DNA of 64,000 bases from Pagrus major (Eukaryota; Chordata; Actinopteri; Spariformes; Sparidae). Shown piece after piece: positions 31,739-35,822 of this stretch. The translations under genes were made by a program, and so were the position numbers. The notes below the pieces were generated by a model, which searched no databases, was not told where the DNA came from, and worked only from the letters and a program-made list of their open reading frames with translations. The stretch's first letter is position 1. Each line of letters starts with the position of its first letter. Location: positions 4,477,163 to 4,541,162 of the forward strand of contig NC_133221.1 of NCBI RefSeq assembly GCF_040436345.1, written 5' to 3'.

Positions 31739-33240
31739 TAGAGATATGAGGAAATGATGTAAAACTGATCAGCTTCTCATGTAAAGGCTCTGTTTGTATG
31801 AACGGAAGTGGCTTTGAGGGCAGTTGCAGATTGGCAGACAGGAAGTAGGCCGCACAGCAGGTTTCATCCTGCTGCCATGGCGATAGCTGCTGAGGGATGT
31901 TGCCATTGGTCGCCCCGTGTCCAGAGGCCGACTGATAAGTAAAATCCACCACATACAAGACGCCAGGAGGTGAATTTTTGCCCCTCGGAGCGAAATGAGA
32001 ATGAAAATGAACATCGGCAGAGGAAGTCGTCCTCGACAAAAGACACACCGACTGACACAGGAAGCGCGGAGGAAGATATCTATCACCTAGGCGATCATGT
32101 TCCCCCACACCCCATGACTAATGCTGACGAAAACACTAAACTTACTGTGAACCAAAGTCTGCATTTACTGTTAACGAGTTTTCCTGTTCATCATATCAAG
32201 AAATGCATTAAAGCGTCCTGGAAGTCAGACGATGCACCAAATTCTGATAGTGGTGTAGCCGACAGGTAATGTGCTGCTTTCTTCTCTGAAAACAGCGAAC
32301 AGAAGTCCATCACAGAGAGCATGAAGAAGGCTGAGCTTACCTTGAATACTGTGGAGGTAAACTTTCAGGCCTGAGCGCAGCTGTTGATCCGCGACTCTTT
32401 CAAACTGCTTGGAGAGTCTGTTGATTGCACTCTGGAGAGATTCATGCCTCTTGATCTCTGCTTTTATTGCAGTGGAGTTTGGCGATTTACTGTTGCTGTT
32501 CATCCTGACACATGGATCTGTTGTAAACCGAAGCAAAGTGCTCGCTTCAGCCCATTTGAACTCCCGGCTGTTTGTTCCACGAGATGAGTCGAACTTAAGA
32601 AACAGAAGCAGCAGAGAAACAAGCGGTGCCTGATCAGGGTGTCTCTCTCTCTCTCTCTCGCTCTAGACCACAAAAGTCAGCTCACGACAATGTGTGTCTC
32701 AGTTTCCTCTGCAGGTTTGAACTGAACAATCCACTTCCTTATTTCAAACTATATTCTTCACTATAGCAGCTCTGACTGCTGTGGTGGCCACACCGTTGAA
32801 AAGGCGTCTGCGGCTGTTATTTACCTGACAGAACACGATCTTCAGCCACCTGTAAAGACTGTTCCTGACTGTGACATATCCACTGATGTCAGACACACAG
32901 AGAGGATTACATGATACCTCTACATTGGACTTAATGCATACAGTATTTGCACTGTCCCCTGATCAGTGACCCATATTTACAGATATCAAAACACATAATA
33001 CAAAGTGCAAAAAGTGTGGTTAGCACCCAGTAATCTTCCGGGTCCTCTGATAGGCAACACTATTCTTTGATCCTTCGTTAAACTGCCTTTGAATCCGTCC
33101 ATCACCAAAGCACACAGCACTTATTTTGCATCTCGACCCGACCTCATATCTACATTATATCTGCTGAGGCTAACCTTCATTAGCTAGCCCCAATAGCTTG
33201 ATCTCAATGCCAATCTAACGTTAGCTTAGCCACCAGTCTT
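31739..33240 (+). repeat. Left arm of large inverted repeat
   Basis: This 1,502-bp arm is the reverse complement of 34,251-35,822. By eye I counted about 12-15 substitutions or small indels plus one 69-bp gap. Identity begins abruptly at about 31,739 and the arm contains the duplicate agap2 first exon. Inside 33,240 the complementarity continues to about 33,450 at much lower identity. Confidence 0.92.
32341..32503 (-). CDS. Inverted duplicate of the agap2 alternative first exon
   Basis: This is the mirror copy of exon 1S in the left arm of the inverted repeat. The ATG at 32,503, all 54 codons (identical at protein level to the right-arm copy) and the donor CAAG|GTAAGC are intact. It points away from the rest of agap2, toward tspan31, whose start is 2.5 kb downstream. 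Nothing downstream on the minus strand looks like the shared agap2 exon. Splicing into tspan31 exon 2 would shift frame (phase 1 onto phase 0). It may be silent, a source of a non-coding antisense-direction transcript, or a new 5' UTR exon for tspan31. It is listed as an exon copy, not as a functional gene. Confidence 0.6.
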
Positions 33241-33519
33241 CCAAATAACTAATATTGAGCAACAACTTTGGCATGAAAACATTTCATAAATCATAAATCT
33301 TATGAAAATAAGTTTCAATATGTTATATAGCTTTATTACACTATGTTAACTATAAGTTAGCATCATTTATGTCTTTAGCATTTTAGCTAACATCATCTTT
33401 GAAAGAAGCATGTTAGCTTCAAAGTATACACTGACGCCATCAGGAAAAAAAACATATACTGTAGGCTGACGTTGAAATCAGCTGACTACGACTCATATTT
33501 ATGGATCAAAATAAACACA

Positions 33520-33710
33520 TTTTCCAGGGTCAACGTGATGATTGTCCTGGATCAACATTTTAAAAAAAAGACCAAGGGTCAACGTGGCCCTGGATAAACA
33601 ACATGAAATCATCCAAGGTCAGTGTGGCGATGATGGTCCAGAGTCAACATGATGATGGTCCTGGGTCAACATCAACGCATTTTCCAGGGTCAGTATGACA
33701 ACACTAGCCC
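33520..33710. repeat. Degenerate tandem repeat in palindrome spacer
   Basis: Between the arms, a unit like AGGGTCAACGTGATGATGGT with CCTGG recurs about five or six times with substitutions. It lies close to the palindrome axis (about 33,745). Confidence 0.6.
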
Positions 33711-34250
33711 CGCAATCGCCAAAAAAGTTTTGACTGGGCTTTAAAACAGTTCAACTACGATGCTCCAGTTTACTTTCTTGATGAATTATGCTCACCAAAG
33801 CAAAATAAGGGCTCCTGTATAATATTTACCCTTTAAAGTTAGTAAACAATGTTCCAGCTTTGTATTAATTGATATGACCAGAGGTCTCGGTATGTAAGGT
33901 CAGTATGCAGAGACTGGACTTGAACTGTGTGCCCTTTATTGGGTCAATGGATGTGTAATAATGTGAAAACATAAGTATTAGTCGGACTACATCCTTAAAT
34001 GTTTGACCTGAGCTCCGACTCCAGTCGTGTTTAAGCTATTAATGCATGATGGCATCAAAATCTGTTAGGCTACCCAAAGTTGGAGACCCTGCAAGAAGTG
34101 TGTGCTTTGTTGCTAGCATGCTGTTAGCAGATGACGTTAGCTGAGATGCTACAGACAGAAATGATTATTTATAGCTTACATTGTGTAATACAGCTTTGTA
34201 AGACTCGTGATTTATGATAAGCAAAGTGTTTGCTACAAGAAGTTGTGTGT

Positions 34251-35822
34251 AAGACTGGTGGCTAAGCTAACATTAGATTGGCATTGAGATCAAGCTATTG
34301 GGGCTAGCCAATGAAGGTTAGCCTCAGCAGATATAATGTAGATATGAGGTCGGGTCAAGATGCAAAATATGTGCTGTGTGCTTTGGTGATGGACGGATTC
34401 AAAGGCAGTTTAACGAAGGATCAAAGAATAGTGTTGCCTATCAGAGGACCCGGAAGATTACTGGGTGCTAACCACACTTTTTGCACTTTGTATTATGTGT
34501 TTTGATATCTGTAAATATGGGTCACTGATCAGGGGACAGTGCAAATACTGTATGCATTAAGTCCAATGTAGAGGTATCATGTAATCCTCTCTGTATGTCT
34601 GACATCAGTGGATATGTCACAGTCAGGAACAGACTACATGAGACAGAAACATCAACTGTGATCACAGTGTTACAGATTCTAATGTTTTTATTATTATTAA
34701 GTCTTTACAGGTGGCTGAAGATCATGTTACGTCAGATAAACAGCAGCCGCAGACGCCTTTTCAACGGTGTGGCCACCACAGCAGTCAGAGCTGCTACAGT
34801 GAAGAATATAGTTTGAAATAAGGAAGTGGATTGTTCAGTTCAAACCTGCAGAGGAAACTGAGACACACATTGTCGTGAGCTGACTTTTGTGGTCTAGAGC
34901 GAGAGAGAGAGAGAGAGACACCCTGATCAGCCACCGCTTGTTTCTCTCGCTGCTTCTGTTTCTTAAGTTCGACTCATCTCGTGGAACAAACAGCCGGGAG
35001 TTCAAATGGGCTGAAGCGAGCACTTTGCTTCGGTTTACAACAGATCCATGTGTCAGGATGAACAGCAACAGTAAATCGCCAAACTCCACTGCAATAAAAG
35101 CAGAGATCAAGAGGCATGAATCTCTCCAGAGTGCAATCAACAGACTCTCCAAGCAGTTTGAAAGAGTCGCGGATCAACAGCTGCGCTCAGGCCTGAAAGT
35201 TTACCTCCACAGTATTCAAGGTAAGCTCAGCCTTCTTCATGCTCTCTGTGATGGACTCCTGTTCGCTGTTTTCAGAGAAGAAAGCAGCACGTTACCTGTC
35301 GGCTACACTACTATCAGAATTTGGTGCATCGTCTGACTTCCAGGACGCTTTAATGCATTTCTTGATATGATGAACAGGAAAACTCGTTAACAGTAAATGC
35401 AGACTTTGGTTCACAGTAAGTTTAGTGTTTTCGTCAGCATTAGTCATGGGGTGTGGGGGAACATGATCGCCTAGGTGATAGATATCTTCCTCCGCGCTTC
35501 CTGTGTCAGTCGGTGTGTCTTTTGTCGAGGACGACTTCCTCTGCCGATGTTCATTTTCATTCTCATTTCGCTCCGAGGGGCAAAAATTCACCTCCTGGCG
35601 TCTTGTATGTGGTGGATTTTACTTATCAGTCGGCCTCTGGACACGGGGCGACCAATGGCAACATCCCTCAGCAGCTATCGCCATGGCAGCAGGATGAAAC
35701 CTGCTGTGCGGCCTACTTCCTGTCTGCCAATCTGCAACTGCCCTCAAAGCCACTTCCGTTCATACAAACAGAGCCTTTACATGAGAAGCTGATCAGTTTT
35801 ACATCATTTCCTCATATCTCTA
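34251..35822 (-). repeat. Right arm of large inverted repeat
   Basis: This 1,572-bp arm mirrors the left arm and contains agap2 exon 1S and its upstream region. Compared with the left arm it has about 69 extra bases at 34,632-34,700. The arms are separated by about 1.0 kb (33,241-34,250). Confidence 0.92.
35058..35220 (+). CDS. agap2: agap2 alternative first exon 1S (short, PIKE-A-like isoform)
   Basis: The ATG at 35,058 opens 54 codons plus one base, ending at the consensus donor CAAG|GTAAGC. The core AIKAEIKRHESLQSAINRL followed by ERV matches the N-terminal helix of AGAP1 and of the AGAP2 short form (PIKE-A). Phase 1 fits exactly onto the shared exon at 49,150, giving [13 protein letters not shown]. 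The resulting protein would be 854 aa, against 836 aa for human PIKE-A. The exon lies 7.8 kb upstream of exon 1L, so the gene would have two promoters. It sits inside the right arm of the large inverted repeat. A (GA)n tract at 34,900-34,918 lies about 140 bp before the ATG. Joining to 49,150 is inferred from phase and homology, not from transcripts. Confidence 0.82.

Follow-up and report, generated by a model that had tools for sequence, protein, structure and literature searches.

An apparently two-layered inverted repeat around the agap2 short-isoform first exon of Pagrus major, with a second exon copy facing tspan31

Genes at the locus and the near-identical arms

We analyzed a 64,000-nucleotide stretch of the Pagrus major genome (contig NC_133221.1, positions 4,477,163 to 4,541,162 of the forward strand; this whole stretch is hereafter the window, and all positions are counted within it). 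An inverted repeat lies there between tspan31, on the minus strand (ATG at 29,873, exon 2 acceptor at 26,561), and an AGAP gene, here called agap2, on the plus strand from 35 kb. The repeat carries two copies of the first coding exon of the short agap2 isoform, and, as a new result of the present analysis, it is longer than the arms first described and appears to be two-layered. The arms themselves, 31,739–33,240 and 34,251–35,822, were called near-identical inverted copies in a preliminary description of the locus made from the letters alone, and a global alignment bore this out, with 16 mismatches over 1,502 aligned bases (98.9% identity) and with exactly those boundaries. The left arm measures 1,502 bp and the right arm 1,572 bp, and the gaps between them are one 69-bp indel and one 1-bp indel; 13 of the 16 mismatches are transitions. 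Repeat search in the inverted direction gave three sub-blocks: 31,739–32,612/34,949–35,822 (3 mismatches in 874), 32,613–32,860/34,700–34,947 (97% identity), and 32,856–33,250/34,241–34,635 (98% identity). Chance similarity of the arms was ruled out by their length. The features of the locus are collected in Table 1.

Table 1. Positions of the features at the agap2/tspan31 locus, counted within the window.
Feature	Position	Strand	Remark
Left outer diverged inverted block	31076..31243	-	74.7% identity to 37,278–37,441
Left arm, derived copy	31739..33240	-	98.9% identity to 34,251–35,822; 0/8 edge-reaching relatives' open reading frames extend more than 11 bp beyond
Left copy of agap2 short-isoform first coding exon, 54 codons + 1 base, intact GT donor	32341..32503	-	identical to right exon
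Left inner diverged block	33241..33432	-	~80% of aligned bases match right inner block
Unpaired spacer, 664 bp, with short minisatellite-like repeat at 33,502–33,692	33433..34096	.	from alignment
Right inner diverged block	34097..34250	+	counterpart of left inner block, inverted
Right arm, ancestral copy	34251..35822	+	7/8 edge-reaching relatives' open reading frames run past 35,822
Diverged patch in right arm: 69-bp indel and 6/16 substitutions within 20 bp	34631..34743	+	left counterpart ~32,817–32,860
agap2 short-isoform first coding exon, 54 codons + 1 base, GT donor	35058..35220	+	in-frame join to exon at 49,150; conserved in fish
Conserved, probably non-coding stretch in first agap2 intron, crossing outer arm edge	35555..35937	+	part up to 35,822 mirrored at 31,739–32,006 (-)
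Right outer diverged inverted block	37278..37441	+	extends to ~37,514 under more permissive local alignment
agap2 common exon after short first exon, phase 1 acceptor	49150..49208	+	3' end placed by eye at GTGAGA donor
tspan31 exon 1 coding part, 21 codons, phase 0 donor	29811..29873	-	spliced model equals Pagrus major tetraspanin-31

Both arms hold the same exon, as the preliminary description had it. The two copies have the same letters throughout, with the ATG present and the donor G/GTAAGC in each. The right copy, which was said to point toward the rest of agap2, is in frame and in phase with the exon at 49,150, the junction reading CAA G/GT and AG/TA AAT. The downstream exons are of the AGAP type that was expected, with Ras-like, PH and ArfGap matches, the PH match falling under Pfam's own cut-off. 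By bit score, the Ras-like exon is nearest to AGAP1/AGAP3 (AGAP1, 47.8; CENTG3 (AGAP3), 45.5; centaurin gamma 1 (AGAP2), 35.2). The gene was named agap2 because tspan31 adjoins it and because of a long exon that resembles that of PIKE-L. This exon, at ~43–44 kb in the open frame 42,869–44,137, is one that we take, from its likeness, to be the PIKE-L exon. An array of diverged direct repeats (60–78% identity) occupies 39,543–40,664, downstream of the short first exon and ahead of the common exon. In human AGAP2, isoform 2 (PIKE-A) has an alternative first exon upstream of the PIKE-L first exon and its own promoter (PMC6344547), and the same order is found here, the short exon at 35.1 kb preceding the presumed PIKE-L-like one. 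The fish locus differs from the human gene in its near-identical, inverted second promoter–exon copy facing tspan31. Because medaka has two genes of the AGAP2 family (PMC3103463), a second AGAP2-family copy may also lie elsewhere in the genome of the present fish.

The exon peptide was compared with a database that holds predicted proteins only, clustered at 90% identity. Of 31 candidates, 30 were relatives with E <= 0.01, and a fish species is named for four of these (Takifugu flavidus, Liparis tanakae, Dissostichus eleginoides and Pogonophryne albipinna), indicating that the exon of the preliminary description is conserved. As judged by eye, 27 of the 30 relatives have G as the next residue after SIQ, SIR or SVQ, which matches a GT donor read through, and the remaining three (P0021, P0028 and P0029) resemble spliced gene models. 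The exon was also sought outside animals. The 18 pattern matches in viral contigs included no relative by tblastn. Among 176 pattern matches in bacterial genome contigs, a single 31% match was obtained, in an Epsilonproteobacteria metagenome-assembled genome (L001); by eye, this is not AGAP, and its translation resembles a bacterial ribbon-helix-helix-type protein.

Diverged blocks and the direction of copying

The homology of the arms extends inward at ~80% as far as 33,432/34,097, and an inverted repeat (33,241–33,432/34,097–34,250) is thus present at the inner turning point. In a whole-window self comparison, one single alignment spans the arms and the inner block (31,739–33,432/35,822–34,097). 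The figure of ~80% comes from 129 of 160 aligned bases, in two alignment bins covering 34,097–34,257 of the right side, of which 7 bases belong to the arm. When the spacer halves were aligned alone, the score was 112, whereas the highest of 300 dinucleotide shuffles reached 48. Within the window, no further copy of the inner blocks was found at E 1e-3; only one 29-bp match appeared (E 0.007).

These observations bear on the possibility that the repeat is an assembly artefact, either a haplotig put in the wrong place or a chimera from a fold-back read. The range of heterozygosity in fish includes ~1.1%, which is the divergence of the arms, and the left copy may be polymorphic. However, the arms run unbroken into the 80% identical block, which is not expected of a misplaced haplotig, and the 664-bp unpaired spacer is unlike a missed-adapter hairpin. 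Furthermore, the 69-bp indel separates the arms, and the window contains no N. We therefore regard an artefact as quite improbable.

Outside the arms, the self comparison revealed a second diverged pair, 31,076–31,243/37,278–37,441, which lies in collinear inverted order (74.7% identity, E 4e-21). The 3-kb flanks of the arms gave a score of 163, compared with a maximum of 47 in 40 shuffles. Within the arms, the differences are unevenly spread. In the patch listed in Table 1, six of the 16 substitutions cluster within 20 bp beside the 69-bp indel, and a cluster of six or more in any 20 bp was reached in only 3 of 200,000 uniform simulations; the patch is either a remnant of old divergence or one complex mutation. 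The inner half, from 34,241 on, holds 16 differences in 642 bp (three boundary sites included) compared with 3 in 875 bp in the outer half (p 0.00025).

The outer edge of the arms allowed the direction of copying to be examined. An open frame of the arm's outer part is matched by 11 database proteins, and eight of their open reading frames (ORFs; P0031 to P0038) reach the outer edge when mapped back to the window. Seven of the eight extend beyond 35,822, reaching 35,845–35,937 in the right flank, and P0034 stops at 35,824. On the left side, the outermost ORF alignments end between 31,728 and 31,743, and none of the eight passes 31,739 by more than 11 bp. The other three matching proteins (P0021, P0028 and P0029) stop short of the edge. 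One substitution could be polarized, 34,931 vs 32,629, where P0002, checked at this site, has QPP as in the right arm and the left arm has QAP. The 1-bp indel at ~34,948 was not polarizable, since the length of P0002 is unlike that of either arm. Because the ORFs continue into the right flank only and P0002 shares the right-arm residue, the right arm is ancestral and the left arm derived. The relatives' ORFs show the right-flank junction only, and this is weak evidence that the relatives lack a left copy, owing to the clustering of the database and its restriction to predictions.

The sequence that crosses this edge is conserved, and it is probably non-coding because its frame differs between species. 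The open frame 35,444–35,848 and its mirror were rejected as protein, as relatives keep the sequence and change the frame (P0031, P0036, P0037 and P0038). Parts of the stretch are included as protein in gene models of Liparis tanakae, Dissostichus eleginoides and Pogonophryne albipinna, and these models look like mispredictions.

Our favoured explanation, to which we give about even weight, is that sequence was recently copied from right to left within an inverted repeat of greater age. This earlier inverted duplication, now 75–80% identical, would have lain around the promoter and first exon of the short agap2 isoform. A stretch of ~1.5 kb from the ancestral right arm, comprising the upstream region, exon 1, its donor and the conserved intronic stretch, would then have been copied to the left in recent time. 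Arm-to-arm gene conversion could have done this, or template switching after fold-back; in the latter case, copying would have started within the inner diverged block and ended at 31,739/35,822. The short agap2 isoform would still begin with the right exon. In favour of two layers, the inner diverged block is contiguous with the arms, and the outer block is collinear and of similar divergence. The patch inside the arm is also such as patchy conversion would leave. With substitution rates of 2–5e-9 per site per year, the 1.1% divergence would roughly place the recent layer at ~1–3 million years and the 75–80% layer at tens of millions of years, both figures assuming no conversion in the measured stretch. 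The preliminary description spoke of a promoter pair that has been created, a wording that suggests one new event, whereas the sequence has an older diverged layer besides the recent one.

Several points weigh against this explanation. The 1-kb flanks directly beside the arms have no mutual homology (best score 26; mean of 100 shuffles, 30), and the stretches that separate the arms from the outer block, 495 bp on the left and 1,455 bp on the right, do not match each other. One of 60 random 3-kb inverted pairs within the window scores as high as the outer flanks, and a dispersed repeat (37,047–37,276) abuts the outer block. The two halves of that block may be dispersed repeats that pair by chance. 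The diverged patch may be a single complex mutation. If the cluster is treated as a single difference and the three boundary sites are left out, the p value for the excess in the inner half rises to 0.06, and constraint on the exon and the conserved stretch could be an alternative cause of this excess.

An alternative is a single young inverted duplication, which we consider unlikely, though less so than the other alternatives discussed here. A replication fork or broken end would have folded back on an unrelated pair of diverged inverted repeats that was already there (the inner blocks), made one copy of 34,251–35,822, and returned to the left flank through microhomology; the 75% block outside would then be an unrelated dispersed pair. 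The diverged inner block does sit at the switch point, the outer edge 31,739/35,822 is sharp with no homology just beyond it, a short TCTA/GATA sequence was noted by eye at that junction, and the window holds several other dispersed repeat pairs. Nevertheless, two diverged blocks, one inside and one outside, in collinear inverted order, the diverged patch within the arm, and the lack of another copy of the inner blocks (window, E 1e-3) argue against a single event.

The left exon copy and the tspan31 side

The left exon lies ~2.5 kb upstream of tspan31 in the same direction and thus faces it, as stated in the preliminary description. The tspan31 model, spliced by eye, equals the 212-residue Pagrus major tetraspanin-31 (P0039, representing a cluster of 20 sequences); the next match among those listed is at 92%, from Scomber scombrus. 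Its tetraspanin match in Pfam falls under Pfam's own cut-off. The preliminary description went on to infer a bidirectional promoter pair, able to start transcription both into agap2 and toward tspan31. On this reading, taken further, the left copy would be a functional second promoter, kept by selection for transcription in the direction of tspan31. The left arm keeps the ATG, the donor, and the conserved upstream and intronic sequence, and its orientation and distance are suitable. However, recent copying accounts for the identity, and the left-flank junction occurs in 0 of 8 relatives' ORFs. Moreover, tspan31 possesses a first exon of its own, with TGACGTCA-type motifs directly upstream by eye, and splicing of the left exon (phase 1 donor) to tspan31 exon 2 (phase 0 acceptor) breaks the frame and loses the tspan31 start codon. 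A useful tspan31 product from the left exon is therefore unlikely. In a search with the exon plus TSPAN31 as query, no fusion protein was found among the 120 listed of 1,192 matches (from 8,000 candidates scored); the best query coverage among them was 78% (P0096, whose leader is unrelated by eye), and TSPAN31 alone makes up 76%. A selected second promoter is therefore improbable in our judgment, and function of the left copy is unlikely. Under two-layer copying, the left exon would be a passively maintained copy, from which transcripts toward tspan31 would be possible.

In a bolder version, tspan31 would use the left copy as an alternative promoter and first exon. Transcription would start at 32.6 kb (minus), and splicing to TTTTTTTTTAACTTTTTTAAAG, an acceptor-like sequence of the tspan31 5' leader, would place the AGAP2 amino-terminal helix in frame ahead of the tetraspanin, the palindrome having shuffled an exon between neighbours. 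The leader does contain a weak acceptor-like site ending in AAAG, the hypothetical use of which gives an in-frame fusion; its pyrimidine fraction is 0.82, compared with 0.88 and 0.94 for two inferred true acceptors. We hold this version to be very improbable. Minus-strand AATAAA/ATTAAA hexamers, which are poly(A)-signal-like, were found at 30,562, 30,539 and 30,364. The arms are not CpG-rich, with CpG observed/expected ratios of 0.31–0.79 in overlapping 300-bp bins and a window average of 0.61. Antisense or double-stranded RNA from the two copies was considered and dropped, since both point outward and their products would be of the same sense.

Other observations concern the surroundings of the repeat. 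TGACGTCA/GACGTCA-type motifs, CREB-like by eye, lie at 29,700–30,100 (-), directly upstream of tspan31 exon 1, and the right outer block at 37,278 likewise contains GACGTCAC and TGACGTCA. A dispersed repeat family has three pieces in the window (37,047–37,276; 50,221–50,309; 50,474–50,646). Another inverted pair, 17,428–17,820/22,112–22,482, is ~390 bp long with 70% identity and probably consists of transposable-element copies. Finally, the open frame 10,217–10,696 (-) contains CRICFQGPEQ, presumably resembling the start of the MARCH9 RING-CH domain; Pfam gave no family for it. Gene-family trees that include AGAP2 have MARCH9 alongside (PMC3103463).

Comparable systems and significance

In the literature on agap2, fish palindromes, inverted duplications and the Pagrus major genome, we found no published case at the agap2/tspan31 locus. 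Palindromes of the Y chromosome have arms that are kept alike by arm-to-arm gene conversion. The present repeat is similar to them in its near-identical arms around a unique spacer and in its mosaic identity, but it is much shorter and is not known to be on a sex chromosome, and conversion is suggested by the pattern only. That pattern, older divergence outside and inside a homogenized tract, is present here, although the outer block may be a dispersed pair and the patch one mutation.

In yeast, inverted duplications are driven by inverted repeats near breaks (PMC10622511), and widely spaced inverted repeats in single-stranded DNA fold back, being suppressed only by heterology beyond 25% (PMC10164571). 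The fish repeat resembles these fold-back or template-switch products in that unique flanking DNA has been copied in inverted orientation and the copy has a diverged inverted repeat at its inner end. It differs from those described in that it is small (1.5 kb), lies in an assembled animal genome, has an unpaired spacer and returns to the original flank, and such a mechanism would have to be inferred for it. A further comparison is ITCH-ASIP in quail, where a promoter-capturing tandem duplication comes with transcripts and a phenotype (PMC6466734). In both cases, a duplication puts the 5' region of one gene upstream of another gene. However, the duplication is tandem in quail and inverted in the fish, and the fish case is known from its sequence alone.

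In humans, a 12q region that is amplified in tumours contains AGAP2, TSPAN31 and CDK4 as neighbours, and this adds some interest to the locus. If the two-layer explanation is true, a conserved promoter–exon unit was duplicated in inverted orientation between divergent genes and was later refreshed by copying. Such refreshment would make the intact ATG and splice sites of the extra copy uninformative on selection. The locus would then serve as a small natural experiment on the re-copying of regulatory DNA by inverted repeats.

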